NCBI RefSeq assembly: GCF_000429265.1 | Contig: NZ_AUBN01000012.1 | Coordinates: 62,001 to 126,000, forward strand | Direction: 5' to 3' | DNA length: 64,000 nucleotides | Origin: Actinomyces gerencseriae DSM 6844 | GTDB taxonomy: Bacteria; Actinomycetota; Actinomycetes; Actinomycetales; Actinomycetaceae | Part shown: one piece after another, positions 37,071-57,869 of the stretch | How positions within the stretch are numbered: position 1 is the stretch's first letter | Layout of the letters: each line of letters begins with the position of its first letter | Notes under the pieces: model-generated | Databases searched by the model: none | The model's input: the letters and a program-made list of their open reading frames with translations, nothing else | Told to the model about the DNA's origin: nothing | Position numbers and translations under genes: made by a program

Positions 37071-40000
37071 GTGACCACGGTCGTTCCTCCCGCCTCCCCC
37101 GCACCGGCGGTGGCCTCTCCTGCGCCGTCCCTCGACGTCGCACCGGGCTCCGTGGTCCGGGTGCGCGACGAGGACTGGCTCGTCACCCAGGTCTCCATGA
37201 CCTCTGACGGCACGCTGGTGACGGTGCAGGGCCTGTCCGAGCTGGTCCGGGACACCACGGCGCAGTTTTTCGCGGGCATCGACCGCATCGTCCCGGTGGA
37301 CCCGCGCCGCACCCGCGTCATCGCCGACGCCTCCACCCGACATCGGCTCTCGCGCCTGTGGCTGGAGGCGACGCTGCGCAAGACGGCGCTGCCGGCGAGC
37401 TCCACGGACCTGGCCGTCGTCGGCGATGTCCTGGCGGACCCCCTGGCCTACCAGCTGACGGCGGTGCGCCAGGCCCTGGACCCGGCGAACCTGCGCCCGC
37501 GCATCCTGCTGGCGGACACCGTGGGCCTGGGCAAGACCCTGGAGATCGGCATGATCCTGGCCGAGCTCGTGCGCCGCGGCCGGGGCGACCGCATCCTCAT
37601 CGTCACGCCCCGCCACGTGCTCGAGCAGATGCAGCACGAGATGTGGTCGCGCTTCGCACTGCCCTTCGTGCGCCTGGACTCGGTGGGGATCCAGCGGGTG
37701 CGCCGCTCGGTGCCGGCCTCGCGCAACCCGTTCTCGGTGTTCCACCGCGCGATCATCTCCATCGACACCCTGAAGTCGGACCGCTACCTCAACCATCTGC
37801 GCAAGCAGCGCTGGGACGCGGTGGTCATCGACGAGTCCCACAACGTCACCAACAAGGGCACGCTCAACAACCGGCTCGCGGACATCCTGGCCCGCCAGAC
37901 CGACGCCCTCATCCTGGCCTCGGCCACGCCCCACAACGGCGACCCGAAGTCCTTCGCCGAGCTCATCCGCCTGCTGGAGCCGACGGCGGTGCGCGCGGAC
38001 GGCTCCCTCGACGAGGAGGCGGTGCGTCGCCTCGTCATCCGCCGCCACCGCCACTCCGACGAGGTGCGCGACGTCGTGGGCGGCCGGTGGAAGGAGCGCC
38101 TGACGCCGGTCAACAAGCTGGTGGCGCCCTCCCCGGCTGAGGACGCGGTGGCGGGCGAGCTCTCGCGCACCTGGCTTCACGGCGGCGACGGCGCCGCCCC
38201 GCCCGGCGGCCGGAAGGCAGGCTCGCGCGGCGACTCGCTATTCGCCTGGACCCTGGCCAAGTCCTTCCTGTCCTCACCGGCGGCCCTGATCCAGACGATC
38301 GACGAGCGCCTGTCCCGGCGCCGCAACCGGGCGGCGGGCCCGGACGGCCCGGAGCCCTCGGAGCAGTCGCAGGCCCTGGCCCGCCTGCGCGAGTTGGCCA
38401 CCCGGGCCAACACGACGGCCTCGGGCAAGTACCAGGCGCTGCTGGCCGAGCTGCGCCGCATCGGCATCTCCCGCTCCTCGGCCGAGCGCGTCGTCGTCTT
38501 CGCCGAGCGCATCGCGACGCTGACCTGGCTGGCCGAGCACCTGCGCGAGGACCTGCGCCTGCCGGCGGAGGCGGTGCGGGTCATGCACGGGAGCCTGTCG
38601 GACGTCGAGCAGCAGGAGATCGTGGAGCAGTTCCGCCAGGCTCACACGCCGGTGCGCGTCCTGGTGACCGGCGACGTCGCCTCGGAGGGCGTCAACCTGC
38701 ACGCCCAGTGCCATGAGCTCGTCCACTACGACATCCCCTGGTCGCTCATCCGCATCGAGCAGCGCAATGGCCGCATCGACCGCTACGGCCAGAGCGTCTC
38801 CCCGCAGATCACGACGCTGCTGCTGAGCCCGTCGGACCCGCGCTTCTCCGGCGACGTGCGAGTGCTCACGCGCCTGATGGAGAAGGAGGACCAGGCGCAC
38901 CGGGCCCTGGGCGACGCCGCCTCCCTCATGGGCCTGTACTCGGGTGAGAAGGAGGAGGCGGCGATCCGCGAGGCGCTGGCAGCCGGGGAGGATATTGACG
39001 AGGTCGTGCCCGACGCCGACGACGCACTCGCTCTGGACCCCATGGCCGCCCTATTCGCAAGGCTCACGGGTACGGCCGAGGCCCGGGGCGGCGACGACGC
39101 ACTCGCCGGTGCCGACGACTCCCCCGCACCCGGCGATCCGAGCGATTCCGGTGATCCGGACGGTCCGGCCGACTCCGCCAACGCTGCCGCTCCGGCCACC
39201 CCCACCCGGCCCGCCGCCCCGCTGCCGACGTCGACGCTGTACGAGACCCAGCTGGACTACCTGCGCCAGGCGCTCACCGAGCTCTATGAGCGCCCCGAGG
39301 AGGCCGAGCAGCGCCAGACCGGCGGCGGGGGCGTCTCGTGGCGCGAGCACGGCCCGCAGCACGTGGTGGAGATGGTGCCCCCGGCGGGGCTGCGCCATCG
39401 CCTGTCGGTACTGCCGCAGTCCTACCTGCGCGAGCGCCGCGTCCAGGAGCACCTGCTGCTGGCCACCACGCAGGCGAAGGGCGCGCGTCTTCTCACGGAG
39501 GCCCTGCGCGACTCCTCGGACTCCTCCTGGCCGGAGGCCCACTACCTGGGGCCCTTGCACCCGGTGCTGGACTGGGTCGGCGACCGGGTCCTGGCCAAGC
39601 TCGGCCGCTCCTCGGTGTTCGCGGTGCGCGGCGATGTGGACTCGCCGACCGTCCTGCTACTGGGGACGCTGACGAACCGCGCGGGCAGGACGGTGTCGAT
39701 GGTGTGCGTCAGTGCCGCCTTCCCGTACCTGGACCCGGCGGCAGCCGGCGCAGACCTGGCTGCGGGCCGGAAGTTCGAGCCGGTGGCGATCGGGCAGGTG
39801 CACGACTCCCCCACCGCCATGTTCGCCTCGGCGGGCATCTCCCGTCAGCTGCGGAACTCCGGGCCGGTGACGGACACCGGCCTGCTGGAGGAACTCATCT
39901 CCCCGGCGGTGGACGCGGCCGAGAGTCAGATGGCGCTGACCGTCCAGGCGGCGAGCCGCCAGGCGCGCGAGCGCGTGGATGCCTGGGCGGAGCACGCAAA

Positions 40001-40172
40001 CGCCTGGGATGACGAGGCCGGTCTCCTCATCCAGAACCGCCACCTGCGCGCGCAGCGCTCCACGGTGGCTCAGGAGCGCGAGCTCATGGACCAGCACCTG
40101 CCCGCGCACACGCTGGTGCGCCCGCTGCTGGTCGTCGTACCACAGGACTTCGGGACGGAAGGGGAGTGCTGA
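37071..40172 (+). CDS. SNF2-type helicase, DrmD-like (class 1 DISARM)
   Basis: A 1033-residue SF2 helicase/translocase. An N-terminal beta-rich segment (PGSVVRVRDEDWLVTQV) precedes the ATPase. Motifs are Walker A LLADTVGLGKTLEIGMI (about residue 146), DESH in VVIDESHNVTNKGTL, SATPHNGDP, GVNLHAQCHELVHYD and the RecA2 motif EQRNGRIDRYGQ (about residue 570). A Pro/Asp/Ala-rich linker (670-720) separates a C-terminal domain seen in helicases encoded beside DISARM methyltransferases. The start is GTG at 37071. The stop overlaps the next start as TGATG, so it is co-translated with the methyltransferase. In class 1 DISARM the homologous DrmD-DrmMI pair restricts unmethylated phage DNA. The family call is firm; the DrmD label is inferred from context. 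Confidence 0.9.
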   Translation: MTTVVPPASPAPAVASPAPSLDVAPGSVVRVRDEDWLVTQVSMTSDGTLVTVQGLSELVRDTTAQFFAGIDRIVPVDPRRTRVIADASTRHRLSRLWLEATLRKTALPASSTDLAVVGDVLADPLAYQLTAVRQALDPANLRPRILLADTVGLGKTLEIGMILAELVRRGRGDRILIVTPRHVLEQMQHEMWSRFALPFVRLDSVGIQRVRRSVPASRNPFSVFHRAIISIDTLKSDRYLNHLRKQRWDAVVIDESHNVTNKGTLNNRLADILARQTDALILASATPHNGDPKSFAELIRLLEPTAVRADGSLDEEAVRRLVIRRHRHSDEVRDVVGGRWKERLTPVNKLVAPSPAEDAVAGELSRTWLHGGDGAAPPGGRKAGSRGDSLFAWTLAKSFLSSPAALIQTIDERLSRRRNRAAGPDGPEPSEQSQALARLRELATRANTTASGKYQALLAELRRIGISRSSAERVVVFAERIATLTWLAEHLREDLRLPAEAVRVMHGSLSDVEQQEIVEQFRQAHTPVRVLVTGDVASEGVNLHAQCHELVHYDIPWSLIRIEQRNGRIDRYGQSVSPQITTLLLSPSDPRFSGDVRVLTRLMEKEDQAHRALGDAASLMGLYSGEKEEAAIREALAAGEDIDEVVPDADDALALDPMAALFARLTGTAEARGGDDALAGADDSPAPGDPSDSGDPDGPADSANAAAPATPTRPAAPLPTSTLYETQLDYLRQALTELYERPEEAEQRQTGGGGVSWREHGPQHVVEMVPPAGLRHRLSVLPQSYLRERRVQEHLLLATTQAKGARLLTEALRDSSDSSWPEAHYLGPLHPVLDWVGDRVLAKLGRSSVFAVRGDVDSPTVLLLGTLTNRAGRTVSMVCVSAAFPYLDPAAAGADLAAGRKFEPVAIGQVHDSPTAMFASAGISRQLRNSGPVTDTGLLEELISPAVDAAESQMALTVQAASRQARERVDAWAEHANAWDDEAGLLIQNRHLRAQRSTVAQERELMDQHLPAHTLVRPLLVVVPQDFGTEGEC

Positions 40173-43100
40173 TGGCGGCATCGGACGCGCTGGTCGTCGG
40201 CGAGGACTGGATCAGCGAGCACTACTTCACCACCGACGCCGTCAAGGAGTCCTTCCTGGCGCGGGTGCTGGAGCGCCGCAAGGAGTGGGAGACCCTGGAG
40301 AAGCCGGCCGATCCCAGTACCGCTCCGACGCCGACGCCCCGCTCCCGGTTCCGCTCCGAGCGCTCCCACCTGGAAGAGCTGCTGGCGGCCCTTCCCGCCG
40401 ACGACGCCGGTTCCCTGACCAGTGCCGCCCTGGAGGCGGCCGAACGGCTCGATGCGCTCCTGCGCGAGATCCTGGGCTTCGCCTCACCGGAGTACCGCCT
40501 GACCGAGCGGGGCCCGGTGACCCTGGTGAGGCCGGTGGGCGATGAGGGCCCGGCCCCGTTGGCGCTGCTGCGGGCCCGCCCGGTGACGACGGTGGAGGAC
40601 CTGCTGGTCAAGGACGCCCCCACGCTCGCCGAGTCCTGGGAGCCGGTGGATCTGGCCGACCCTGACGCCCCGGTGCTGGAGGGCTCCGAGCCGGTGGAGT
40701 CGGTGTCCCGGGCGCTGTCGACGCTCATGACCGATGAGCACGGTCCGGCCTTCGCCCTGGTCCTGGCGGGCCAGTGGGCGCTGGTGGCGGAGCGGGAGCG
40801 GTGGCCGGAGGGCCGCTGGCTGGCAGTCAACGTGCAGCTCGTCGTCGAACGCCATGAAACCACGCGCGGAGGCGAGGTGGAGCGGGCCCTGACCTGCCTG
40901 GATGCCCGCTCCCTGGTGCCGACGGCGGAGGGCGAGACCTGGTGGGCGGCCACCCTGGAGGACTCGGCGGCCCACACGGTGGGGGTCTCGAAGGACCTGC
41001 GTGAGGGCGTGCGCGCCTCGATCGAGATCATCGCGAATGAGGTGGTGCGCCGTCGCTCCGCCCGGGGGCTGGAGCCGCTGGCCCAAAAGCGGGCGCAGGA
41101 CCTGGCCCTGCAGTCGCTGCGGTACATCTACCGGATCATCTTCCTGCTGTACGCGGAGGCGAGTCCCGAGCTGGGGGTCCTGCCGGTGGGCGCCACCGAG
41201 TACGACGCCGGCTACGGCCTGGATCGTCTGCGCGAGCTGGCCTTGAGGGAGCTGCATGAGGAGTCGGCCCAGGCGGGCACGCACATCTATGACTCCCTGG
41301 ACCGCCTGTTCCACCTGGTCGATGAGGGGCACAACGAGCAGGTGCCGGCCGCGCAGGAGGGCAGCTTCGACGGCCTGGTCTTCCGGCCGATGCGCGCCGA
41401 CCTTTTCCGCCCGGTGGCGACCGCCCTCATCGACGAGGTGGGTCTGGGTAACGGGGCGCTGCTGCGGGTGCTGCGCCACCTGCTGCTGACCAGGGAGAAC
41501 GGCAAGAGTGGCCGCGGCTTCATCTCCTATGTGGAGCTGGGCATCAACCAGCTGGGCGCCGTCTACGAGGGGCTCATGAGCTACTCGGGGTCCTTCGCCA
41601 CCGAGCGCCTGTGGGAGGTGGCGCCGGGCGGCGATGCGTCGAAGGGCTCGTGGGTGGTGCCCGAGGACGTCATGAAGGGCCTGGAGGAGAAGGACTTCGT
41701 GACGGTGGAGGATGAGGTGACGGGTGAGCGCCGCAATGTCACCTATGAGAAGGGCCAGTTCGTTTACCGGCTTTCCGGCCGGGACCGGCAGCGCTCGGCT
41801 TCCTTCTACACCCCGGAGGTGCTGACGCGTTTCACGGTGCAGCAGGCGCTGGAGGAGCTGCTGGATCAGGATGGGCGGACGACGAGCGCGGAGGAGATTC
41901 TGCACCTGACGGTGTGTGAGCCGGCGCTGGGGTCGGGGGCCTTCGCGATTGAGGCGGTGCGACAGCTGGCGGAGCAGTACCTCTCGCGGCGTGAGCGTGA
42001 GCTGGGCCGGCGCGTAGATCCTGAGGAGCGGCCCCGGGAGCTGGCGAAGGTGAAGGCGTATCTCGCCTTGCACCAGGTCTACGGAGTGGACCTCAATGCG
42101 ACGGCGGTGGAGCTGGCGGAGGTGTCCCTGTGGTTGGACACGATGGTGGAGGGGCTGGCGGCCCCGTGGTTCGGGCTGCGTCTGCGGCGCGGTAACTCGC
42201 TGGTGGGGGCGCGCCGAGCTCTGTACTTCACCCCCCAGCTGAAGAAGCGGGCCTGGCTGTCGGCCGCTCCGGTGGCCGAGCCACTGAGCCAGGTGGCGGC
42301 CGCAGTCGACGACGCCGATGCCGCCTCCCGGCACCGGATCGGTGGGGCACTGGACGTCTCCGGGAGCATCCATCACTTCCTGTTGCCGGCCAAGGGCTGG
42401 GGCAGCGCGGTGGAGGTTCCCAAGCAGGTGCGGGACCTGGTTGATGCCGGCCGGCTTAAGGCCCTCAAGGCCTGGCGCAGGGAGACCACGAAGGCACCGA
42501 ATAAGACCCAGACCGAGCGGCTGACGGCCCTGGCCCGGCGCGTGGAGGTCCTGTGGGAGATGACCCTGCGGCGCCTGCGGGTGGCGGAGACGGAGGCCTC
42601 GCGGCGCATCGATCTGTGGGGCCGCGAGACGCAGGACGACGCCGGTTCAACGGTGTCCCGCGAAGACATCGAGGCGTATCTAGCGGCGCCGGGCTCGGCG
42701 TATCGGCGGCTGCGGCTGGTCATGGATGCGTGGTGCACCCTGTGGTACTGGCCGCTGACCACGGAGGTAACCCCGCCGAGCCTCGATGAGTGGCTGGGTG
42801 CCCTGGAGGGTCTGCTGGGTAAGCAGGTCAAGGACGCCAAGGGCACCGACGGAACCCTGGTGGATGCCTCCTCATGGGCGGAGCTGGAGACCATGGAGGA
42901 GGTTGAGCTCGGTCTCGCCGGCGCTCGCCGGGTGGAGGCGGTCATTGACGAGCACCAGTGGCTCGCCGTGGTCCAGGAGGTGGCGGAGGCGCAGGGCTTC
43001 TTCCACTGGGAGCTGGACTTCGCCACCGTCTTCGCCCGCGGAGGCTTCGACCTCCAAGTGGGGAACCCGCCGTGGGTGAGGCCCCGCACCGATGTTACTG

Positions 43101-44890
43101 GTCTTCTCTCTGAGGGAGATCCCTGGTGGTCACTCAGCAACAAGCCGTCTGTCACCGCAAAGAACGAACGCATGCCACACACCTTGGCTCGTCCTGGAGT
43201 CCTACGCACAGTCCTTGACGGAACCGCTGAGGTCATCGTGCTCTCTGAGCTCCTGAGCGAACCGGCTGTCTATCCGCTCCTCAGCGGCCAGCCGGATCTC
43301 TACCGCGCATTCATGTGCCAGGTGTGGCAGCACCAAAGCCAGGGCGGAACGTCGGGGCTCATCCATCTAGAAAGTCATTTCACTGACTCGAAGACTCAAA
43401 GTCTTCGAGCAGCATCTTACCGTCATTTGCGTCGACATTGGCAGTTCATCAATGAACTTCACCTCTTTGACATCCAGAACCAGAAACAATACGGCGTTAA
43501 TGTCTACTCCACCGAACAGGACCCCTACTTCCTACACGCAGTATCTCTCTATCATCCAGAGACTGTAATGCGTTCACTCAAACACGATGGTTCAGGAGAA
43601 GAACCGGGCTTCAGAGATCCTCGCACCGGCTTCTGGGACCTCCGCCCACACTCGGCTCGCATACAACTTGTTGACATTCCGACCCTTCAGTCTTGGCAAG
43701 CCGTCACTGAATCCAGCGATTGGCATTCCACTTCTATGGTGTCAACCGTCAACTCCACCACATCACGGACGCTTGCAACCCTTGCCCACAGACCACGCAT
43801 CAATTCACTGGAACTTCGTCACTCCAGAGGATGGGACGAGTCAATCGATCGCCAGAAGGGGAGATTTATCCGGTCATGGGGCCCCTCTTCCTGGGACGAC
43901 GCAATCATTCAAGGATCGCATCTCTACGCGTCCACGCCGTTATACAAGCAGCCGAACCGGACAATGGCTAACCAACGCGACTGGACGTCAACCGACCTGG
44001 AAGCACTTGCCCCGAGCGCACAGCCCGTTACCCAGTACAAGCCTGCGGGCGACCGCGCCACCTACGACCGTCTCTACACCCACTGGGACGGCTCCCCCGC
44101 TCGCGACCACTACCGCATCGCCTGGCGCCGTATGGCCCCTCTGACCGGAGAAAGAACTCTTGCGTCAGCAATCATTCCTCCCGGTCCAGCACACATTGAC
44201 GGCGTTTTCTCAGCAGCCTCTAAAACACCTTCCGATACCCCACTCGTAGCAGCCACATTATCCACACCGCTCAGCGACCTATTGATTCGAGCAGGCGCAA
44301 ACACCAACATTCGCGAACGTGCAATCAGTCGCCTTGCTCTACCATCTTCAACTTCACCCCTAGCGAAGCAAATTACGCTGAGGGCACTTCGCCTGAACTG
44401 CCTCACAGATGCCTACGCCGATCTGTGGACAGAGTGCTGGGATGAGTCGTTCCTGACTGATATTCCAATTCTGGAGCGCTATGACGAGCGTCCGATTGGT
44501 CCGGAGTGGACAGCGGATACGCCGTTGCGTCGGGCGGAGGATCGTCGCAATGCCCAGACGGAGATTGATGTCATGGCGGCAATGATGCTGGGGGTGCCGA
44601 TCGAGGACTTGTGCACGATCTACCGCACCCAGTTTGCCGTCCTCTATGACTACGACCATGGCCGTGGCCAGGGCGCCTACGTCTACGATACGAACGGCCG
44701 CCAGCTGCCGACTCCGGTCCGCCAGGCCTGGGAGAAGCGCCATCGCCCTACCTCCAACGAGGACATGCCATTATCGGAGCGCACTCACACCCACCCTGGC
44801 TCCGACGTCTCCTACGTCTACGACCTCCCCTTCCGCATCCGCGACCGCGAATCCGACTTCCGCCGCATCCACACTCATCTATCCGACTAG
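40172..44890 (+). CDS. Eco57I-type adenine-specific DNA methyltransferase, DrmMI/PglX-like
   Basis: A 1572-residue protein. Motif I with SAM binding reads CEPALGSGAFAIEAVRQLA (about residue 588), followed by YGVDLNATAVELAEVSLWLD. The catalytic motif IV NPPW sits in VGNPPWVRPRTD (about residue 964). Length and order fit DrmMI/PglX enzymes, which methylate adenine at a nonpalindromic site to mark self DNA. The start ATG at 40172 has AAGGGGAG upstream and overlaps the helicase stop; GTG at 40166 is an alternative. From about 43090 to 44450 the DNA becomes clearly AT-richer with different codon use, corresponding to the target-recognition region. The conserved tail (DVMAAMMLGVPIEDLCTIYR) returns to host-like composition. 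Confidence 0.92.
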   Translation: MAASDALVVGEDWISEHYFTTDAVKESFLARVLERRKEWETLEKPADPSTAPTPTPRSRFRSERSHLEELLAALPADDAGSLTSAALEAAERLDALLREILGFASPEYRLTERGPVTLVRPVGDEGPAPLALLRARPVTTVEDLLVKDAPTLAESWEPVDLADPDAPVLEGSEPVESVSRALSTLMTDEHGPAFALVLAGQWALVAERERWPEGRWLAVNVQLVVERHETTRGGEVERALTCLDARSLVPTAEGETWWAATLEDSAAHTVGVSKDLREGVRASIEIIANEVVRRRSARGLEPLAQKRAQDLALQSLRYIYRIIFLLYAEASPELGVLPVGATEYDAGYGLDRLRELALRELHEESAQAGTHIYDSLDRLFHLVDEGHNEQVPAAQEGSFDGLVFRPMRADLFRPVATALIDEVGLGNGALLRVLRHLLLTRENGKSGRGFISYVELGINQLGAVYEGLMSYSGSFATERLWEVAPGGDASKGSWVVPEDVMKGLEEKDFVTVEDEVTGERRNVTYEKGQFVYRLSGRDRQRSASFYTPEVLTRFTVQQALEELLDQDGRTTSAEEILHLTVCEPALGSGAFAIEAVRQLAEQYLSRRERELGRRVDPEERPRELAKVKAYLALHQVYGVDLNATAVELAEVSLWLDTMVEGLAAPWFGLRLRRGNSLVGARRALYFTPQLKKRAWLSAAPVAEPLSQVAAAVDDADAASRHRIGGALDVSGSIHHFLLPAKGWGSAVEVPKQVRDLVDAGRLKALKAWRRETTKAPNKTQTERLTALARRVEVLWEMTLRRLRVAETEASRRIDLWGRETQDDAGSTVSREDIEAYLAAPGSAYRRLRLVMDAWCTLWYWPLTTEVTPPSLDEWLGALEGLLGKQVKDAKGTDGTLVDASSWAELETMEEVELGLAGARRVEAVIDEHQWLAVVQEVAEAQGFFHWELDFATVFARGGFDLQVGNPPWVRPRTDVTGLLSEGDPWWSLSNKPSVTAKNERMPHTLARPGVLRTVLDGTAEVIVLSELLSEPAVYPLLSGQPDLYRAFMCQVWQHQSQGGTSGLIHLESHFTDSKTQSLRAASYRHLRRHWQFINELHLFDIQNQKQYGVNVYSTEQDPYFLHAVSLYHPETVMRSLKHDGSGEEPGFRDPRTGFWDLRPHSARIQLVDIPTLQSWQAVTESSDWHSTSMVSTVNSTTSRTLATLAHRPRINSLELRHSRGWDESIDRQKGRFIRSWGPSSWDDAIIQGSHLYASTPLYKQPNRTMANQRDWTSTDLEALAPSAQPVTQYKPAGDRATYDRLYTHWDGSPARDHYRIAWRRMAPLTGERTLASAIIPPGPAHIDGVFSAASKTPSDTPLVAATLSTPLSDLLIRAGANTNIRERAISRLALPSSTSPLAKQITLRALRLNCLTDAYADLWTECWDESFLTDIPILERYDERPIGPEWTADTPLRRAEDRRNAQTEIDVMAAMMLGVPIEDLCTIYRTQFAVLYDYDHGRGQGAYVYDTNGRQLPTPVRQAWEKRHRPTSNEDMPLSERTHTHPGSDVSYVYDLPFRIRDRESDFRRIHTHLSD

Positions 44891-44942
44891 AGCCCAGGCT
44901 GTAATACTCACCGACACGCCACACCTTCGAAAAGGAGAGCTT

Positions 44943-46250: not shown

Positions 46251-46694
46251 GGATCGAGAAACAAGTAAGAACCGCTTTCTCGCCCCACAGAGCATCAGCA
46301 AGCCCCCGAGGTGAGGGCAACTGATTTAGTTTCAGAGCGAATGGTGTACCGCTGGTACGGGAGCACTGAACCCATAGGGGCGATGATTGGCGCTTAATCG
46401 GTCTCTCATCCTGAAAGTCCATGAGGATGCCATCAGCTCCCATGACCACCCTGTCATGCCGACCTCGATGAGACCCATTAGGAGAAGGAGCGCCCGAAAG
46501 ATCCGTAAATCATGGCGGCCGAAAGAAGTGTATCACCCAGCGCAACCAAGGACAGTCTCCCACTGTCCTGCTGGTACATGCTTTCAGGCTGCGTGATGGT
46601 CGCTGAAGTCCCGCGAGGTGAGGTGGCACGGATCCACCTGAGAATCGACACTTTGGTCGTCGATGGCTCTGCACGCGATCGCGTTGCGCTGAGC
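46251..46694. other. AT-richer spacer, no gene recognised
   Basis: Short open frames on both strands lack ribosome-binding sites and family resemblance. No tRNA, hairpin terminator with T-tract or mobile-element end could be identified. Confidence 0.4.
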
Positions 46695-48097: not shown

Positions 48098-48117
48098 AGT
48101 AGCCAGGGGTGAGTTCA

Positions 48118-48475: not shown

Positions 48476-48502
48476 GGATCTCCGCAAACGAGGCTCGGAA
48501 CC

Positions 48503-48676
48503 TCACGTTGAACCGCCCGCTCCCTTTCTCCCGAGGTCGGCCTTGACCTCGTCCCAGGGGATGGGGCCGTGCTCTGCGATCTCAGCCCGGGCGGCGGCGG
48601 CCTCGTCATCAAGAAGCGACTCGGACCGTTTCCTCTTCCTTTCCCTCGCTGCGGTAGCCTCTGAGTTGCGGGATCA
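48503..48676 (-). pseudogene. Antitoxin C-terminal relic
   Basis: Minus-strand reading gives RSESLLDDEAAAARAEIAEH then GPIPWDEVKADLG and a short tail to the TGA at 48503. The ending IPWxxVKxDLG after an acidic helix is typical of type II antitoxins of the RelB/Phd/HTH kinds. Upstream the frame is closed by a stop with no start codon between, so only about the last 55 codons remain. No partner toxin is present. Confidence 0.5.
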
Positions 48677-48808
48677 ATCTCCCGGAACGACGACGATCCG
48701 CACGAGGCCGTGCCGGCCCCGGCGGGCACAGGTCCCGTGCCCGCCCCGGCCGACGCCGCCCCCATGCCGCATCCGAGCCCCACCACTCACAACCAGCGCG
48801 CCTTACTC

Positions 48809-51800
48809 ATGACTCTTCTGCTCCCCAGCCTCCAGGCCGAGCGCATCCGGCGCTCCATCGTCGACTACCTCTCGACGACCTTCGCGCTGACGGACGCCGA
48901 GCCGCGGCGCGTCCTCGCCGACTTCCTGGAGGACGAGGAGCAGGGAGTCTTCGTCGGCCCCTTCGTCCGCCTGCGCCTGCCCTACCTGGCCGCGAGCGCC
49001 GCCTCCCGCGCGGCGGGCCAGGCAGACAGCCCCCTCGACTGGGACCCCGGCCTTCCTCCCTACCAGCACCAGGAGGACGCCTACCGGCGCCTGACCACCA
49101 AGGGCGGTCACCGCCCCGAGCCGACCATCGTCACCACCGGCACCGGCTCGGGCAAGACCGAGGCCTTCCTCCACCCCGTCATCGACCACGTGCTGCGCGC
49201 CCGAGCCGAGGGGGTCACCGGCATCAAGGCCCTCATCCTCTACCCCATGAACGCCCTGGCCGCCGACCAGGCCGGCCGCCTCGCCCGCCTCATCGCCGGG
49301 GATCCCGCCCTGGCCGGCGTGCGCGCCGCCGTCTACACGGGAGACTCCTCCGCCCGGCCGCACAAGCACGTCACCGCCGACTCCCTCATCACCGACCGCT
49401 ACGTCATCCGCGACAACCCGCCGGACATCCTGCTCACCAACTACAAGATGCTCGACCAGCTCCTCCTGCGCCCCGAGGACCGCGAGCTGTGGCGGGCCTC
49501 GGCCGGGTCGCTGACCTACCTGGTCCTCGACGAGTTCCACACCTACGACGGCGCCCAGGGCACCGACGTCGCCATGCTGCTGCGGCGCCTGGGCCTGGCC
49601 CTGCGCGCCCACCTGCCCGCCGACGACCCCCGCCAGGAGGCCTTCGCCGCCTCGCCGCTCGGCCCCGTGTGCCCCGTGGCCACCTCCGCAACCCTCGGCG
49701 ACGGCGCAGACCCCTCCCGGATGCTCGCCTTCGCCCGCGACGTCTTCGGCGCCGACCTGCCCACGAGCGTCGTCGTCACCGAGACGCGCGCCGACCTCGA
49801 CCGGTGGGCCGCCGCGCACCTCGCCACTGCCGAGTCCAAGGGCCTGGCCGGTTGCGCCCTGCGCCTGCGCTCCCTGCCCGGTGAGAACCTGCAGGCCCTG
49901 GCCCGCTTCGCCGAGGCCGGCTCCCCCGATCCAGAGGAGCTGCTCCGCGGCGTCGTCAGCAACCTGTATGACCTGCCCGAGGAGGTGGAGGACGCCCTCG
50001 ACGCCGCCGGCCTCGCCTCCGCCCTCCAGGCCCACCCCGACGTCCTGGACCTCGTGCGCGCCGCCGGGAACTCCACACCGCTGGCCGCCCTCGCCCAGCG
50101 CCTCCTGGGCCCCGCCCCCGAGTCGGGTCCGGCCCGGCGGGTCCTCTCCGCGATCCTGGCGGCCCTGTCCGTCGTGCGCGCGGGACTCGACGGCACCCCC
50201 GACCGCCGCGCGGTCAACGTGGAGGTCACCCTGTGGATCCGGGAGGTCACCCGCGTCGACCGGGCCCTGACCTCCCTGCCCTCCTTCCGCTGGGCCGACG
50301 CCGCCTCCGAGCAGACGCGAGCCGAGGAGCCCGCGCGCCCCGCCCTGTACTGCCGCTCCTGCGGGCGCTCCGGCTGGGGCATCGTCCTGGCCCCCACCGG
50401 CCAGAGGGAGAAGGACGACCAGACCCACGTGCGCCGCGACCGCAGGACCGGCGATCCCCGCTTCCGGGCCCTCCTGCACGCCCCCGGCGAGGACGCCGAC
50501 GACCGCACCCAAGCCGAGGCCGGCGAGATCAACCTGGAGGCCCGCCACCCCGGGCTGCGCTGGTACTCCATCAACAGCCGCGAGCTCCTCACCCGTCGCC
50601 CGGCCCAGGAGAGCACCGAGGCCAAGGAGGGCCTCGTCCTGCCGGTCCTCACCCTCACCGGGGACGAGCGCAGCATCGCCGAGGACTCCACCCACGACGT
50701 CTGCCCCTCCTGCGGGGCCAAGGACTCCATCCGCTTCCTCGGCTCGGCCGTCGCCACCCTCCTGTCGGTGTCCCTGACCACCCTGTTCGGCGACGACGCC
50801 CTCGACGACACCGAGAAGCGCGCCCTCATCTTCACCGACTCCGTGCAGGACGCCGCCCACCGCGCCGGCTTCGTCAACCAGCGCTCCCACACGATGAGCC
50901 TGCGCTCGGCCCTGCGCGGTGCCCTGCGGGCGGAGATGCCCATCGAGGAGTGGGCCGAGGCCGCCCTCGACGACGCCCGGGCCAGCGCCTTCGACCGCTA
51001 CCGCCTGGTCCCCGCGGCCCTGGCCGAGCACCAGCGCTTCAAGCCCTACTGGGACCCGAAGGCCCCGGCCTCCAGGCGGCGGCGGGCCGAGTCGCACGTG
51101 CGCCGTCGGCTCCTGTTCGACATCGCCCTGGAGGTGGGCCTCCAGTCCACCTACGGGCGCACCCTGGAGGCCACCGGCTCGGTGACCGTCCACGTCAGCG
51201 CCGGACGCGCCAGCGCCCTGGCGGCCCTCGCCCGTCAGGCCCTCGGGGCCGACCAGCAGGGCGTCCTCGACGGCTTCGAGGGCATCAGCGACGCCGATCT
51301 GCTCGCCTGGGTGCGCGGCACCCTGGAGCACATGCGCCGCGAGGGCGCCATCGACCACGAATGGCTCGCGCGCTACAAGCGCGACGACGGCAAGCGCCTG
51401 TGGATCTGGTACAAGCGCAGGCGCGACCAGGGCCAGCCCGCCTTCCCCTCCGGGCGCGCCGCACCCGCCTTCCCCCAGGTGGGCGGCGGCCTCGACACCC
51501 GCACGTCGGCCTTCCCGCCGGTGGGCTCGTCGAAGTCCTGGTACGCCACCTGGACCCGCAAGTGCCTGGGGGTCGCGCCCACCCACGCCTCCCGCCTGGC
51601 CTGCGCGCTCCTGGCCCGCCTGGCCGAGGCCGAGATCCTCAGCGTCACCGCCACCGACTCCGGCGGCACCGTCTACGGGCTGCCGGCCGGGCGCGTCGTC
51701 GTCTCCCCCCTGCGCGAGACCACGCGCGAGACCCTGCTCCTGGTGTGCGACACCTGCCGAACGCAGTTGCCCGCCGCCACCGCCACCGTCGATCAGCTCG

Positions 51801-54800
51801 ACGGCGCCCCCTGCTCGGCCGCCGGCTGCCCGGGTCACCTGAGGGCCCGGCCGCATCCGGCGGAGAGCTTCTACCGCAGCATGTACGCCGGGGCCCACGT
51901 GCGCCGCGTCGACTCCCACGAGCACACCTCCCTGCTCGACGCCGACGAGCGCGCCGCCGTCGAGGCCGGGTTCAAGCGCCCCGAGCAGGCGCCGGGGGAC
52001 CCCAACGTCCTGGTGGCCACCCCCACCCTGGAGATGGGCATCGACATCGGGGACCTGTCCACCGTCATGCTCGGCTCCCTGCCGGCCACGGTCGCCTCCT
52101 ACGTGCAGCGGGTCGGCCGCGCGGGCCGCCGCAGCGGCTCGGCGCTCGCCCTGGCCTACGTGCCCGGCAGGCGCAGCCAGCTGCCGATCCTCGACGCCCC
52201 CGACCGGCTCCTCAACGGATCGGTCGCGCCGCCGTCGACCTACCTGGGGGCCGAGGAGATCCTGCGCCGCCAGTTCCTGGCCTCCGTCATCGACACCCTC
52301 ACCCGTGAGAACCACCCGGCCGTCCCCTCCGGGGGCCGCGGCGGCGGCACCGCCAGGACCGCGCTGGGCGCCACCGGCGAGGGCTCGCTCATCACCACCG
52401 TGTGCGAGCGGATCGAGCGCGACGGCGCCCTGCTGGCGCAGGTCTTCACCGCCGCCTTCCGGGAGCGCACGCCGGCGCTCGACCGCCTGACCACCTGGGT
52501 GACTCGGGACTGCGGCGCCGGGCCCCGAGAGATGCTCACGCGGGACGCCGCCGAGCACCGCGCCGAGGCCGAGCGGCTGCGCCATCAGGAGCGCCAGATC
52601 CGCGAGACCCTGCCCGGGCTCAAGGCCGCCGCCGAGCGCCCCAACCCCACCGAGGAGGACCGGCGGGCCCAGCGCGCCGCCGAGGGAGCCCAGAAGGCGG
52701 CCCGGTCACGGATCCTCGAGCTGGAGGAGGAGCACTGGGTCTCGGCCCTGGAACGCCACGGCATCCTGCCCAACTACACCCTCATCGACGACTCCGTGCG
52801 CCTGTCCGCCCGCGTCTCCTGGCGCGACCCGGACAACGACGAGTTCCACTCCGAGCCCTACGACGTCGAGCGGGCCTCCGTCCACGCCCTGCACGAGTTC
52901 GCCCCCGGCGCCACCTTCTACACCCGCGGCCTGGAGATGACCATCGAGGGCATTGACGCCTCCGACCTGCGCAACCAGGCCCAGTGGTGGTTCTGCTGCG
53001 AGGCCTGCGGCTACACCGACGTGCGCGAGCCGCAGGAGACCCGGCCCGCCGCGCCCCCGCAGTGCCCGAGGTGCCGCGACACCGCCATCGCCGATGTCGG
53101 GCGCGCCCGGCGGGTCCTGCGCCTGAGTCGGGTCTTCGCCGACGTCTCCCGGGACGACGCCCGTATCGGGGACTCCAGTGACGAGCGGCTGCGCGCCCGC
53201 TTCGAGGTCCTGCCGCTGGCCGACGTCGACCCGGCGCGCGCGGTGCGCCAGTGGAGCGTGGAGGCCTCCGGGTTCGGGCTGACCCGCTACCGGGCCATGA
53301 ACCTGCGCTGGCTCAACACCGGGCGGCCCCTGGCCGGCCAGAGCGTCGACCAGGTGGCCGGCAACGCCCTGTCCTCACGGGACTTCCGCCTGTGCGAGGC
53401 CTGCGGCAAGCTCGACACGGACACGCGGGCCGCCTCCGCCCGCGAGCACCGGCCCTGGTGCCGGTACCGCAGCGACCCGGCCGAGCACGTGATCGCCGTC
53501 GACCTCATGCGCGAGCTGAGCACCGAGGCGCTCGCCCTCGTCCTGCCGCTCGGCTTCGCCACCGACCGGGTGGGCGTGGACTCGCTGGCCTCCGCGATCC
53601 TCCTGGGACTGGAGATCACCACCGGCGGCTCCCCCGACCACCTCGGCATCGCCTGCGTCCCCCACCCCGTCGCCGACGGCGCCCCCGGCGAGACCCGCCC
53701 CGCCCTCCTGCTCCACGACACCGTGCCCGGGGGCACCGGCTACCTCACCGACCACGACGACTCCTCCCGACTCTGGAGCCTCCTCATCCGCACCGGCCAG
53801 CGCCTGGAGAGCTGCCCGTGCCGCGCCGAGGGCAAGGACATGTGCCCGGACTGCCTGCGGCCCCACGCCGTCTCCGCCGAGGTCACCCGCGCTGCCGCCC
53901 TGCACGCCATCGGCCAGGTCCTCGGCCTGGACACCACGGGCACCGACGTCCTGTTCGCGGACCTCGACCCGGAGGTCCCCCAGTGGGAGGTCACCGACGA
54001 GGCCGTGCGCGCCGGCACCGGGGAGAGCCCCCTGGAGGTGCGCTTCCGCGCCACGCTCGCCGAGCTCCTGGGCAAGGAGATGGCCGTGCGCACCACCAGC
54101 GACCCCTCGGGCGCGCCCGCGCTGGAGGTCGACGGGGGCCGCTGGCGGATCCGCCCCCAGCTCGACGTCCGCGGCACCCGCCCCGACTTCGCCTGCCTGC
54201 GCCCCGGGGGCCGCGGCCCCATCGCCATCTTCACCGACGGTCGCAGCTACCACGCCAGTCGCGCGCACAACCGCCTCGCCGACGACGCCGACAAACGCGC
54301 GCGGCTGCGCGCCGCCGGCTACCGGGTCGTCTCCGTCGGCGCCGAGGACTTGGACGAGCCGTGGGACCCGGCCTGGCTGGGTGAGACCATCATCGCCCAG
54401 CTCAAGAACGGCGCCCTGGGGCCCGCGCGCGCCGGCGGCGTCACCGACCAGGCCATCGCCGCCTGGCGCGGCGGGCCGATGGCGCTCCTGGAGGCGATGC
54501 TGAGAGACGACGTCGAGGACCCCGGCTCCAGCCCGACCGCCGCCGCCCTGGAGGCTCTGGCCGACTCCGCCTGGGGGCCGCTCATCGTCGGCGCCGCCGG
54601 CCACCTGCCCCTGGGTCAGAACGCGTCCCTGCGGTACTCCGCCACCCAGGGCGCCGGGGCGGATCCGCTGTGGGAGGCGCTGCGCGTGCTGCGGCCCGAG
54701 GATGATCTGCCCGAGCCAGCCGGCGCTGCTGATGCCGCCGCCTCCCCCGCGGGTTCCGCACGCTCCGGCTCGGTCTTCGCCATCCCCCACCTCGCTCTGG

Positions 54801-55339
54801 CGGTCCAGCTGACCGGTGTCTCCACCACGGGGATGGCCCTCGTGCTCGACGACTCCGACGAGGCCCTGGCCTCCCCCGAGCACCCCGAGGCCTGGCTGGC
54901 CTGGCTGCGGCTCGGCAACGTGCTCGCCCTGTCCCGGGCGTCCGTGGACATCACCACGACCAGCCGGGCCCTGGCCGAGCTGCGCGCCCGCGCCCAGGTC
55001 GAGGTCGCCGTCGCCGACGTCGCCGGCAGCCCCGCCGCCATGAGCGATCTCGGCTGGGACGACGTCGACCGGGACCTCACCCCCGAGCCCGTCCTCGCCC
55101 TCCTGCCCCACCTGGCCGCGGCCGGCGTCCCCCACGGGGGCGACGGCGTCGAGGTCGGCGGCATCATGACGGACCTGTCCTGGGCCGCGCCCAAGGTCGC
55201 TGTCCTCGCCGAGCCGCAGGACGGCGACGAGGAGGCCCTGACGGCGGCCGGCTGGCGCGTCATCGTCACCGGCGACGATCCGGCCCGCACCGCCACCGAT
55301 ATCTGCGCGCTCATCCCCGAGCTCCTGGAAGGACACTGA
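48809..55339 (+). CDS. Giant DEAD/DEAH-type helicase with DUF1998 and C-terminal nuclease-like domain (DruE / DrmA-DrmB-like)
   Basis: About 2176 residues. SF2 helicase motifs: Walker A TTGTGSGKTEAF (about residue 110), DEFH in YLVLDEFHTYDG (about 240), VATSATLGDG, then far downstream ATPTLEMGIDIGDLSTVMLG and QRVGRAGRRSG (about 1100). Several zinc-like Cys clusters (CRSCGRSGWG, CPSCGAKDS, CCEACGYTDV with CPRCRD, CPCRAEGKDMCPDC). The last lies in a DUF1998 region marked by LLLHDTVPGGTGYLTDH (about 1640). A further domain around 1790-1830 (TRPDFACLRPGGRGPIAIFT, then a Lys/Arg-rich helix and YRVVSVGAEDL) resembles a PD-(D/E)XK or Vsr-like nuclease. The start ATG at 48809 begins the homologous MTLLLPSLQAERIRRS; no clear ribosome-binding site. 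Druantia DruE has this size and DUF1998. Confidence 0.9.
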   Translation: MTLLLPSLQAERIRRSIVDYLSTTFALTDAEPRRVLADFLEDEEQGVFVGPFVRLRLPYLAASAASRAAGQADSPLDWDPGLPPYQHQEDAYRRLTTKGGHRPEPTIVTTGTGSGKTEAFLHPVIDHVLRARAEGVTGIKALILYPMNALAADQAGRLARLIAGDPALAGVRAAVYTGDSSARPHKHVTADSLITDRYVIRDNPPDILLTNYKMLDQLLLRPEDRELWRASAGSLTYLVLDEFHTYDGAQGTDVAMLLRRLGLALRAHLPADDPRQEAFAASPLGPVCPVATSATLGDGADPSRMLAFARDVFGADLPTSVVVTETRADLDRWAAAHLATAESKGLAGCALRLRSLPGENLQALARFAEAGSPDPEELLRGVVSNLYDLPEEVEDALDAAGLASALQAHPDVLDLVRAAGNSTPLAALAQRLLGPAPESGPARRVLSAILAALSVVRAGLDGTPDRRAVNVEVTLWIREVTRVDRALTSLPSFRWADAASEQTRAEEPARPALYCRSCGRSGWGIVLAPTGQREKDDQTHVRRDRRTGDPRFRALLHAPGEDADDRTQAEAGEINLEARHPGLRWYSINSRELLTRRPAQESTEAKEGLVLPVLTLTGDERSIAEDSTHDVCPSCGAKDSIRFLGSAVATLLSVSLTTLFGDDALDDTEKRALIFTDSVQDAAHRAGFVNQRSHTMSLRSALRGALRAEMPIEEWAEAALDDARASAFDRYRLVPAALAEHQRFKPYWDPKAPASRRRRAESHVRRRLLFDIALEVGLQSTYGRTLEATGSVTVHVSAGRASALAALARQALGADQQGVLDGFEGISDADLLAWVRGTLEHMRREGAIDHEWLARYKRDDGKRLWIWYKRRRDQGQPAFPSGRAAPAFPQVGGGLDTRTSAFPPVGSSKSWYATWTRKCLGVAPTHASRLACALLARLAEAEILSVTATDSGGTVYGLPAGRVVVSPLRETTRETLLLVCDTCRTQLPAATATVDQLDGAPCSAAGCPGHLRARPHPAESFYRSMYAGAHVRRVDSHEHTSLLDADERAAVEAGFKRPEQAPGDPNVLVATPTLEMGIDIGDLSTVMLGSLPATVASYVQRVGRAGRRSGSALALAYVPGRRSQLPILDAPDRLLNGSVAPPSTYLGAEEILRRQFLASVIDTLTRENHPAVPSGGRGGGTARTALGATGEGSLITTVCERIERDGALLAQVFTAAFRERTPALDRLTTWVTRDCGAGPREMLTRDAAEHRAEAERLRHQERQIRETLPGLKAAAERPNPTEEDRRAQRAAEGAQKAARSRILELEEEHWVSALERHGILPNYTLIDDSVRLSARVSWRDPDNDEFHSEPYDVERASVHALHEFAPGATFYTRGLEMTIEGIDASDLRNQAQWWFCCEACGYTDVREPQETRPAAPPQCPRCRDTAIADVGRARRVLRLSRVFADVSRDDARIGDSSDERLRARFEVLPLADVDPARAVRQWSVEASGFGLTRYRAMNLRWLNTGRPLAGQSVDQVAGNALSSRDFRLCEACGKLDTDTRAASAREHRPWCRYRSDPAEHVIAVDLMRELSTEALALVLPLGFATDRVGVDSLASAILLGLEITTGGSPDHLGIACVPHPVADGAPGETRPALLLHDTVPGGTGYLTDHDDSSRLWSLLIRTGQRLESCPCRAEGKDMCPDCLRPHAVSAEVTRAAALHAIGQVLGLDTTGTDVLFADLDPEVPQWEVTDEAVRAGTGESPLEVRFRATLAELLGKEMAVRTTSDPSGAPALEVDGGRWRIRPQLDVRGTRPDFACLRPGGRGPIAIFTDGRSYHASRAHNRLADDADKRARLRAAGYRVVSVGAEDLDEPWDPAWLGETIIAQLKNGALGPARAGGVTDQAIAAWRGGPMALLEAMLRDDVEDPGSSPTAAALEALADSAWGPLIVGAAGHLPLGQNASLRYSATQGAGADPLWEALRVLRPEDDLPEPAGAADAAASPAGSARSGSVFAIPHLALAVQLTGVSTTGMALVLDDSDEALASPEHPEAWLAWLRLGNVLALSRASVDITTTSRALAELRARAQVEVAVADVAGSPAAMSDLGWDDVDRDLTPEPVLALLPHLAAAGVPHGGDGVEVGGIMTDLSWAAPKVAVLAEPQDGDEEALTAAGWRVIVTGDDPARTATDICALIPELLEGH

Positions 55340-55340
55340 C

Positions 55341-57869
55341 ATGGCCACGATCCTGTTGCCCAGCAGCAAGACGAAGGACGCCACCGCCAAGGACCCCTCC
55401 CTCAGGGCGAAGATTGGGCCATTCATCAGCAAGCTGTCCACCATGACCGCGAGCTCGGGCCTGCACCTGGAGCCCATTCGTGGGGCGCGGGACCGGCGCG
55501 TGCGCACCGCGCGCGTCACCGACTTCTACCGGGCCGTCCTGTTCGAGCTCGCCGCCGACGGCGAGGTCGTCTACGTCGTTCACGGCATCTGGCCGCACGA
55601 CGAGGCCATCAAGATCGCCGAGTCCGTCACGGTCCACGTCAACCCCCGCAACGGCATCACCGAGGTCGTCGACGTCCGGGACCTCATCGGCCTGGATCCC
55701 GACGCCGTCGAGGAGGCGCGGCGCGCGGCCCGGGCCAAGCTCGCCGCTGCCCAGCGCGAGGCCGACGAGATCGCCCGCGAGACCGTCCGGATCCAGGCCG
55801 CCAACGCCGAGGCGCGCCGTCGCAACCAGGAGGCCGCGAGAGGCTCCGACGCCGGTTCCGAGCCCACCCAGGCACCCGGTGCTGAGCCGGTCGCGGTGAC
55901 TGCTGCACCACCGGTGGAGGGCCGCCGGAGCGAAGGCGGGACGGCTGCTGGGGTGGCCACCGGGGCCGTTACTGTGCCGGGCGCCGTCGTCGTCCCCAGC
56001 CGGGACCAGGCCCCCAGCTGGCCCGAGGGGCTCACCGTGGAGATCCTGCGCGACGAGCTCGGCATCGACGTCCAGCTCGGCGCGGCGGCACTGGCGGCGG
56101 AGCGTGAGTCCCAGCTGCTCGACCTGGCCTCCACCGCCCAGGTCTCCTGGCAGGGCGAGGCGCTGCTCAACCTGGCCACGGGGGCGACGATCGAGGACAT
56201 CCGTGAGGACTTCGGGCTGCGGCTCTCGCGCGACGTCGCCGCCGAGCCCACCGACGCCGACCTCATCGCCGGTCTGCGCACCCGCGCGGCGCGCTCGACC
56301 TTCACCTGGGTGGAGACCGACGAGGACCTGCGCCGCGCCATCGAGGGTCTCAGCTTCGCCGAGTGGCAGCTCTTCCTGCACCCCCAGCAGCGGGCCCTCG
56401 TGGAGCGGCGCGCGAACGGCCCCATGCGCGTCTCGGGCGGCGCCGGAACCGGGAAGACCGTCATCGCGGTGCACCGCGCCGTCGAACTCGCCGAGCGGGA
56501 TGCGGCCGAGGGACGCGAGCCGCGGATCCTGCTGACGACCTACACGCGCAACCTCGCCGACGACCTGCGCCGTCAGGTCGCCCAGCTCGAGCCACGGCTG
56601 TCCTTCACCGAGAGGCTTGGCGAGTCCGGGGTCATGGTCAGTGGCCTGGACCGGGTGGCGCGCATGATCCTCCAGCGGGCCGGGAGCGAGATCACCCCGA
56701 TCGCCCAGGGGGTCATCGGCCAGGCTCGCGCGCGGGTGCTGACCTACCCCAGGGGCAGTGTGTGGCAGGAGGTCCTCACCCTCATGGGCGATGAGCTGCC
56801 CGAGGGGCTGCGCTCCGCCGACTTCCTGGAGTCCGAGTACGACCTCATCGTTCTGCCACAGCGCATCACCACCCTTCGGCAGTACCTGCGCATCCGCCGG
56901 CCCGGGCGGGGCGTGGCCCTGGACCGGTTCAGGCGGGCCGCCGTGTGGAAGGCGGTGGAGCGCTACCGGGACCGCAGCGCCGACCTGGGCGTCACCTCCT
57001 TCTCCGAGCAGCTCGCGCTGGCCGCCGCCTGGCTCGACCACGAGGCGGCCCTCGGCTCGCCCAGGCCCTTCCGGCACGTGCTCGTCGACGAGGCCCAGGA
57101 CCTGTCTCCCGCCCACCTGCAGCTGCTGCGGGCGCTGGTGGAACCTGGCCCGGACGATCTGTTCCTGGCCGAGGACTCCCACCAGCGGATCTACGGCAAG
57201 AAGATCACGCTCAGCCACTACGGGATCCAGGTGCGAGGGCGATCGCGGCGGCTGACGCGCAACTACCGCACCACCCGTCAGAACCTCGACGTCGCCTTCG
57301 GGATCCTCGATCCCGGCACCTATGAAGATATGGAGGGGCAGGCCGAGGAGCACCGCTACGTCTCGCCGCGCTCCGGACCGGAGCCGCTGCTGCTGCACGC
57401 CACTGACCGCGCCGATGAGCTGAGCAAGGCCGCTGAGCTGTTGACGGTGTGGCTGGAGCAGGACCGGGACAGTGAGGACAGTGCCCCGGAGTCCATCGCC
57501 GTCCTCGTGCGTGACCACTACCAGCGCGACGCCGTCGTCAACGGCCTGGCGCAGCACGGGGTGGAGGTGCGCGCCGTGGACCGCGAGGCGGCCGGTCGGG
57601 GCCGGCCGGTGGTCATGACGATGCACCGTGCCAAGGGGCTGGAGTTCCGCAAAGTCCTGCTCTTCGACGTGTCGGAGAACGCGATCCCCCGGTCGCTGCG
57701 GGACCAGCAGTACTCCGAGGCCGACCACGCCGATGCGATGCTGCGGGAGCGCTCGCTCCTGTACGTGGCGGCCACCCGCGCCCGCGACCAGCTCGCCATC
57801 TCCTGGAGCGGGAAGGCGAGTCCGTTGCTGGACACCATCGCACGACGAGAGCAGCAACCGCTCGCATAA
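55341..57869 (+). CDS. SF1 (UvrD/REP-like) helicase with N-terminal RelE-like domain
   Basis: 842 residues, starting one base after the giant helicase stop. Residues 20-95 (AKIGPFISKLSTMTASSGLH, EPIRGARDRRVRTARVTDFY, VVYVVHGIWPHDEAIKIAE) resemble the RelE/ParE fold. A charged, Ala/Arg/Glu-rich linker follows to about 230. SF1 helicase motifs are Walker A VSGGAGTGKTVIAVHRAVEL (about 365), VLVDEAQDLSPAHL (about 580), NYRTTRQNL, VMTMHRAKGLEF (about 757) and LYVAATRARDQL (about 806). It likely translocates on single-stranded DNA. Tight linkage implies a shared complex with the giant helicase. Whether the RelE-like domain cuts RNA or only binds is unknown. Confidence 0.9.
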   Translation: MATILLPSSKTKDATAKDPSLRAKIGPFISKLSTMTASSGLHLEPIRGARDRRVRTARVTDFYRAVLFELAADGEVVYVVHGIWPHDEAIKIAESVTVHVNPRNGITEVVDVRDLIGLDPDAVEEARRAARAKLAAAQREADEIARETVRIQAANAEARRRNQEAARGSDAGSEPTQAPGAEPVAVTAAPPVEGRRSEGGTAAGVATGAVTVPGAVVVPSRDQAPSWPEGLTVEILRDELGIDVQLGAAALAAERESQLLDLASTAQVSWQGEALLNLATGATIEDIREDFGLRLSRDVAAEPTDADLIAGLRTRAARSTFTWVETDEDLRRAIEGLSFAEWQLFLHPQQRALVERRANGPMRVSGGAGTGKTVIAVHRAVELAERDAAEGREPRILLTTYTRNLADDLRRQVAQLEPRLSFTERLGESGVMVSGLDRVARMILQRAGSEITPIAQGVIGQARARVLTYPRGSVWQEVLTLMGDELPEGLRSADFLESEYDLIVLPQRITTLRQYLRIRRPGRGVALDRFRRAAVWKAVERYRDRSADLGVTSFSEQLALAAAWLDHEAALGSPRPFRHVLVDEAQDLSPAHLQLLRALVEPGPDDLFLAEDSHQRIYGKKITLSHYGIQVRGRSRRLTRNYRTTRQNLDVAFGILDPGTYEDMEGQAEEHRYVSPRSGPEPLLLHATDRADELSKAAELLTVWLEQDRDSEDSAPESIAVLVRDHYQRDAVVNGLAQHGVEVRAVDREAAGRGRPVVMTMHRAKGLEFRKVLLFDVSENAIPRSLRDQQYSEADHADAMLRERSLLYVAATRARDQLAISWSGKASPLLDTIARREQQPLA

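Follow-up and report, generated by a model that had tools for sequence, protein, structure and literature searches.

A probable ARMADA type II anti-phage operon in Actinomyces, with a cargo slot between armB and armC

To what kind of defense system do four large genes of an Actinomyces species belong? The genes occupy positions 37071 to 57869 of a 64,000-nucleotide stretch of DNA, which we will call the window. A first-pass annotation described them as a multi-helicase defense locus with an adenine methyltransferase, and the Pfam and PADLOC matches agree. It also held that the locus is neither a complete DISARM nor a complete Druantia system; here too PADLOC gives look-alikes only (DrmD, type IIG, DruE, and GajB). 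But the further claim, that the locus matches no described composition, does not hold. Judging from its best matches to the Arm proteins of E. coli (PMC12458937), the locus is ARMADA type II, a known system, gene for gene (ArmA, ArmB, ArmC, and ArmD). We put the probability of this reading, in which a cargo slot divides an anti-phage operon of ARMADA type II, at roughly 80%. The architectural novelty is the slot between armB and armC, and the function of the locus is predicted from its sequence.

All four genes are open frames on the forward strand, at the places that the annotation gave. armA (37071..40172) encodes a BrxHII/RapA (SNF2)-like helicase of 1033 residues, with DESH at residue 254. 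armB (40166..44890) encodes a PglX/YeeA-like N6-adenine methyltransferase of 1574 residues (1572 from the ATG at 40172), with NPPW at residue 967. By the translations, the stop codon of armA (TGA, 40170-40172) shares bases with the ATG at 40172, which gives the TGATG overlap that had been noticed. armC (48710..55339) encodes a YprA/DUF1998 helicase with a C-terminal Vsr/MTES_1575-type signature. The full frame has 2209 residues; the previously reported length of 2176 is correct when counted from the ATG at 48809, which is residue 34 of the longer frame and the point from which relatives are mostly conserved. armD (55341..57869) encodes an SF1 UvrD/GajB-like helicase of 842 residues with an N-terminal RelE-fold domain. 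The stop codon of armC ends at 55339 and the ATG of armD is at 55341, so the spacing is one base, as reported. The earlier description did not mention that the armAB and armCD pairs are parted by 3.8-3.9 kb that contain other genes.

Pfam assigns SNF2 and Helicase_C to ArmA, the Eco57I methylase to ArmB, DEAD, Helicase_C, and MZB to ArmC (with MTES_1575 below threshold), and UvrD to ArmD. The best labels from PADLOC-DB 2.0.0 are DrmD (ArmA), type IIG (ArmB), DruE3 (ArmC), and NERD+UvrD/GajB (ArmD). Because these labels belong to other systems, the locus looked like a hybrid. The expected co-occurrence of the four families was borne out by a gene-neighborhood survey of actinobacteria, where it is widespread in relatives; since the four families are also co-linear there, the gene set is not due to chance. 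Rfam gave no match to a structural RNA at gathering scores in window positions 35000-64000. Directly 3' of armD, a low-GC stretch (57885-60445) encodes a protein of 634 aa, apparently with membrane segments, and an NT5C-type 5'-nucleotidase; neither had a match in the stretches that we fetched from 25 further Actinomyces genomes, most of which extend no more than a few kb beyond armD.

The description of ARMADA comes from a preprint of September 2025 (Bell et al. 2025, PMC12458937). As described there, type II comprises a BrxHII/RapA-like ArmA, a PglX/YeeA-like ArmB, a YprA ArmC with a Vsr-type nuclease at its C-terminus, and a RelE-UvrD ArmD, always in the order A-B-C-D. Its traits include an ArmC from the ARMADA II clade of the YprA tree and BrxA-like and MarR-like insertions (PMC12458937). 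In E. coli, all four genes of ARMADA II are needed, and the protection is non-abortive (Bell et al. 2025, PMC12458937).

As reference proteins, we used six E. coli proteins from a Zorya-Druantia-ARMADA array on a plasmid, which a tblastn search retrieved with ArmB of the window as query. On this plasmid, the four arm genes come after those for ZorA2, a STY4851-family protein, and a DEAD helicase; following the account of the array in PMC12458937, we read the STY4851-family protein and the DEAD helicase as DruH and DruE. Key residues of the array lie at the positions given in that paper (ArmA D236, ArmB N971, and ArmD K266 and D454). Among the six proteins, the best match of each window protein is the corresponding Arm protein: 33.6% identity over residues 22-870 for ArmA, 33.3% over 185-1519 for ArmB, 29.5% over 37-1884 for ArmC, and 34.1% and 29.7% over two parts for ArmD. 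ArmC, for which we compared E. coli ArmC and DruE and built a tree of ArmC homologs alone, scored 598 bits against ArmC and 122 against DruE. In the same run, a locus on a Tsukamurella plasmid was closer than E. coli (46.4%, 42.5%, 31.6%, and 37.4% for ArmA to ArmD). Because the key residues and best matches point to Arm proteins, and DruH had no match, we classified the locus as ARMADA II.

The window thus has the features of ARMADA II: an ArmA helicase, an NPPW methyltransferase, a YprA helicase with fused DUF1998/MZB, and a RelE-UvrD ArmD. It shares with the systems of E. coli NCTC 12900 and ATCC 8739 (PMC12458937) the four proteins, their A-B-C-D order, the NPPW and Walker motifs, the RelE-UvrD protein, and a putative Vsr-type signature in ArmC. 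It differs in that exchangeable cargo parts armB from armC, in its sequence (29-34% identity), and in having its own motif before armC. In E. coli, the armB-armC span is 11.25-11.28 kb, which means that the junction is closed (29 full-length matches listed, including the query record; 519 genomes match).

DISARM class 1 has a similar pair of SNF2 helicase and adenine methyltransferase and also has a YprA/DUF1998 helicase. In contrast to DISARM, the window's YprA protein is in one piece (DEAD plus MZB), and a RelE-UvrD protein is present. The first-pass annotation had explained the single piece as a fusion of the DrmA and DrmB roles, but a one-piece helicase is the rule in the YprA/DUF1998 family, and the split into DrmA and DrmB is the exception found in DISARM (PMC12458937). 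It had also proposed that the PLD nuclease DrmC is gone and that the SF1 helicase takes its place. The absence stands: PADLOC gave no DrmC match among the neighbors that were scanned in full or, for the arm proteins, among the best 25 of 27-45 families. The substitution does not, because the C-terminal Vsr-type domain of ArmC probably acts as the nuclease, so the SF1 helicase is not a simple replacement. Druantia type III (DruH-DruE) resembles the window in its very large DUF1998 helicase, which is of a related lineage; unlike ArmC with its Vsr-type signature, the type III DruE has PLD-like nuclease domains (PMC12458937). The PADLOC families, the best matches to E. coli Arm proteins, and the lack of a DruH match led us to reject membership in either system, and a variant DISARM or Druantia is highly improbable: the best PADLOC families of ArmA and ArmC (DrmD and DruE3) speak for it, but no neighbor scanned in full matched DrmC or DruH, E. 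coli DruH (as we read the STY4851-family protein) had no tblastn match in the window at E 0.001, ArmC is far closer to E. coli ArmC than to DruE, and ArmB scored 1376 bits against a full-length type IIG model while DrmMI models match in part only.

We then considered the domains that set ARMADA II apart. The Vsr-type reading of the end of ArmC comes from a residue pattern, a sub-threshold Pfam match (MTES_1575, 20.7 bits against a cut-off of 38.2), and the description in PMC12458937. The residues D1826, D1843-G, H1848, N1854, D1859, and K1862-R1863 are invariant in all 14 aligned proteins, including E. coli's. A predicted model of the C-terminal 430 residues had a pLDDT of 86.5. With this model, Foldseek returned no significant match (3hrl, a putative endonuclease, came at E 0.41 and probability 0.85), and a profile search of solved structures with the end of ArmC gave three weak hits.

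For ArmD, we modeled the N-terminal 130 residues from an alignment with 42 relatives, at middling confidence (mean pLDDT 73.5). Of the 33 best Foldseek hits of this model, 29 were named toxins, or their complexes, of the RelE/YoeB/YafQ/ParE/HigB type; these hits to the RelE superfamily had probabilities of 0.85-1.00 and E values of 0.002-0.16, none reaching E 0.001. The other four were two unnamed Helicobacter proteins and two Txp40 chains. Sequence-profile searches of solved structures and Pfam with the same alignment found no RelE relatives of the ArmD start. By its predicted fold, ArmD appears to be a GajB-like helicase with an N-terminal RelE-like domain. In two Nocardia loci (L208:3646-5805 and L224:2950-5103), an ORF upstream of armCD has a start that resembles this region by eye; armAB was not found within 10 kb of either.

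What lies between armB and armC? In the window, the slot (44891..48808, or 3.8-3.9 kb) holds a PDC-S59 gene and debris. Its GC content is 0.56 (44891-48709), compared with 0.69-0.76 at 34-42 kb and 48-58 kb. The cargo gene (44943..46250, forward strand) starts 52 bases 3' of armB and encodes a PDC-S59-type AAA ATPase of 435 aa (PADLOC PDLC05049, a candidate defense family, 577 bits over residues 8-425). In the genus, PDC-S59 was found in one other of 49 genomes (G200), at the same place. A second ORF (47195..48487, reverse strand) is DprA-like (Pfam DNA_processg_A; domain at residues 201-400), with a homolog in the slot of G208. We do not regard it as a conserved extra component because most matches in other slots cover just its first ~140 codons, which are antisense to a dispersed repeat. 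This repeat, of about 300 bp, lies at window positions 48130-48480 and 61521-61870, both on the forward strand. It matched in 37 of the 49 genomes, with up to 7 copies in each, and had no match in Rfam; by eye, it may contain an ORF of 47 codons preceded by a strong ribosome-binding site.

Across these 49 Actinomyces genomes, ArmB was found in 22, the first part of ArmC in 23, and ArmD in 26. Where armB and armC of the main lineage share a contig (17 operons), this junction is open in every case, by 2.4-13.2 kb. In three more of the 22 ArmB genomes, a contig end interrupts the operon, and cargo follows armB in each (a 548-aa unknown protein in G233). G208 and G225 form a distant second lineage, with gaps of 1.9 and 0.5 kb. 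As side observations, four Actinomyces genomes (G214/L138, G219/L141, G240/L142, and G218/L143) showed only armCD, armD, or fragments, apparently decaying operons; G202 (L117:12199-12847) has two fragments of a second armA ~2 kb 3' of armD, as if an ARMADA copy had been lost; and the armB of G234 (L123) is interrupted by ~1.7 kb of inserted DNA.

By their leading genes, the 17 slots hold 11 kinds of cargo, nine of which resemble known or candidate defenses. The kinds are PDC-S59; an unknown protein of 1264 aa; a ThsB-type TIR protein with SLATT; an OLD-like ATPase; GajA with GajB; PDC-S28; an NsnA/GmrSD-type enzyme; the reverse transcriptase UG33 (with a DDE domain); PD-Lambda-5; a 1064-aa helicase with a caspase-like gene; and an unknown protein of 495 aa. 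(The matches for the OLD-like, GajB, and caspase cargos are moderate and partial.) Operons that are nearly identical elsewhere differ in their cargo: G198 and G232 carry PDC-S28 genes (66% identical), G217 a GmrSD-type gene, and G179 the 1264-aa gene. We scanned 21 cargo proteins from the genus and order, the DprA-like ORF, and 10 proteins from the named loci described below with PADLOC, Pfam, or both. Cargos of 1264, 495, 548, 896, and 512 aa had no match to a PADLOC model.

The slot is also found beyond the genus. Our sample of the order has 16 operons from other genera with the genes on one contig, and in 3 of them (G047, G186, and G126) the opening exceeds 800 bp. For a larger comparison, we used the named set, which is the best 80 of 564 confirmed actinobacterial loci (some genomes of the order sample recur in it); armB was measurable in 60. 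Among these best 80, the opening between armB and armC exceeds 800 bp in 17 of 60, four of them Actinomyces, while armA and armB are within ~220 bp in 50 of 52 and armC and armD within ~150 bp in 74 of 77. We re-read the five outliers. L201 is open between armA and armB by ~1.1 kb, and L206, a rearranged locus, between armC and armD by ~2.8 kb; L216 and L237 are closed; and in L217, armA runs into armB with parts of both missing. In the best 80, then, the two other junctions together are open in 2 of 129 cases (L201 and L206). Fisher's exact test for 17/60 versus 2/129 gives p = 5.7e-8 (3.9e-6 with all five outliers counted as open, and 1.4e-4 without the four Actinomyces loci), with the reservation that related rows of these best 80 are not independent.

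On a FastTree phylogeny of 93 ArmC rows, 74 of them labeled, slot occupancy requires 10 changes (nine forced by starred branches), against a mean of 24 when the labels were shuffled. None of 500 shuffles was as low. Occupancy is clustered by lineage, and therefore there were fewer gains than there are occupied rows. Cargo in the named loci includes GmrSD-type enzymes (in Mycolicibacterium L199 and Propionibacterium L207 and, by eye, in L219 and Mycolicibacter L237), an AriA/PtuA-like ATPase, PDC-S08, DarG, and a NYN/HEC-09 protein. PADLOC gave no strong matches for L211, L220, L238, or the second gene of L188. The PDC-S08 protein, in the slot of L201, is a 5'-nucleotidase different from the one 3' of the window's armD.

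Could these be two separate neighboring systems, an armAB-like pair and a DruE-like/SF1 helicase pair, with unrelated genes between them? The 3.8-3.9 kb of unrelated low-GC DNA would fit, as would a separate promoter for armCD. Also, armCD occurs without armAB in the stretch that we fetched from G214, and in five Nocardia loci (L200, L208, L221, L224, and L232) with no armAB within 10 kb. But ArmD was found in 22 of the 23 ArmB genomes of the order sample, and among the best 80 of 564 loci, the armB-armC gap is under 800 bp in 43 of 60, with overlapping genes in 30. In these 80, ArmD follows ArmC in 79, and the remaining locus is cut off. The requirement for all four genes in E. coli (PMC12458937) also argues for one system. 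We consider two separate systems to be improbable and continue with a single ARMADA II operon.

This operon may nevertheless be transcribed as two units. The motif CGNTANC[CT]TC (48652..48661 in the window, forward strand), a candidate promoter for armCD, occurs in 19 of 21 Actinomyces contigs at most ~210 nt ahead of the armC match. G237 and G214 lack the exact pattern, which was picked after viewing those upstream regions and has nine further matches on the same strand of the same contigs. A promoter dedicated to armCD is probable. The first ORF of at least 80 aa (the longest was picked) is co-oriented with armB and starts at most 309 nt from its stop in 16 of the 20 Actinomyces slots that we examined. 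We infer two units, armAB-cargo and armCD, with the cargo co-transcribed with armAB.

Near-identical operons also differ within ArmB. We compared six pairs of A. oris-group operons in blocks of 60 columns. The first ~960 columns of ArmB are 85-100% identical, columns ~960-1440 are 37-93% identical, and the last two blocks rise again to 90-98% (85-98% in the 13 pairs examined). ArmA, ArmC, and ArmD are mostly 85-100% identical in the six pairs, with single blocks down to 62%. In the window, the hypervariable part of armB (residues ~960-1440) corresponds to 43043..44485 on the forward strand. By analogy with the target-recognition parts of type IIG and PglX enzymes, it is likely the target-recognition region, which predicts different methylation motifs in near-identical systems. 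Because ArmB looked mosaic, we considered whether the cargo and the recognition part are exchanged as one cassette. The last ~130 residues of ArmB are conserved, however, and lie between the two variable parts, so exchange as one unit is not supported.

How cargo enters the slot is hinted at by relics of the start of armC, which we found in the slots of four lineages (G200; G202, which is L179; G047; and L211). They lie directly behind cargo genes or, on the second contig of G200, further along. Besides true gene ends and one match in G227, the slots held no relics of the end of armB; the G227 match is between the end of its cargo stretch and what looks like an insert in the armB of G234. Insertion with duplication of the head of armC was considered, and relics in four lineages are too few to settle the mechanism.

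We propose a working model, mostly from the E. coli system. ArmB, aided by the translocase ArmA, would methylate adenines of a strain-specific motif and in this way mark the DNA of the host. ArmA and ArmC would engage unmarked incoming DNA, which ArmC would unwind and its Vsr-type domain, if it is a nuclease, would cut. ArmD, with its helicase and RelE-like domain, would be required for protection. The first-pass annotation had proposed a methylation-guarded system; we likewise infer that this host methylates its DNA and is guarded in this way. The exchangeable second module between armB and armC, often a defense, would in most of the relatives that we examined be read after armAB as a third gene, and it may be of benefit.

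What does the slot mean? One answer is ordinary accretion in a defense island, with a junction that merely tolerates genes and no functional coupling, and we give this an even chance. Another low-GC stretch lies directly behind armD (57885-60445), slots are filled with debris, the dispersed repeat, inserted elements, and fragments, and each of the other two junctions is open once among the best 80 of 564 loci (L201 and L206). On the other side, those two junctions are mostly closed in the same operons, and the first cargo ORF is co-oriented with armB and starts close to it in 16 of 20 slots; neither observation shows coupling. A more tentative proposal, which we would sooner bet against, is that the junction is an evolved docking site, where a second immune module works with ARMADA as the third gene behind armAB, while the recognition part of ArmB is exchanged separately. 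If so, the cargo could, for instance, serve as a back-up against inhibition of ARMADA, and near-identical operons would differ both in self-mark and in partner defense.

There is a precedent for a nested module. In the BREX system of pEFER, brxU lies between brxC and pglX, and it encodes a type IV enzyme of the GmrSD type with demonstrated complementary protection (Picton et al. 2021, PMC8565348). As in the window, a second defense enzyme is nested in an operon that contains a methyltransferase. Unlike that case, where one insertion is described (PMC8565348), the ARMADA site is recurrent and holds many unrelated cargos. Our searches of the open-licence literature on ARMADA and on nested or embedded defense genes turned up no description of an armB-armC slot; by these searches, the recurrent slot was not previously described.

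PADLOC-DB 2.0.0 alone splits the four proteins into DISARM, type IIG, Druantia, and Gabija-like pieces. Near-identical operons that differ in the recognition part of ArmB and in the nested partner offer a test of whether ArmB sets the self-mark, and the same natural series could test whether nested defense systems gain from each other. Defense genes that have yet to be described could also be sought at the fixed insertion site, where the inserts of 1264, 548, 495, 896, and 512 aa are candidates.
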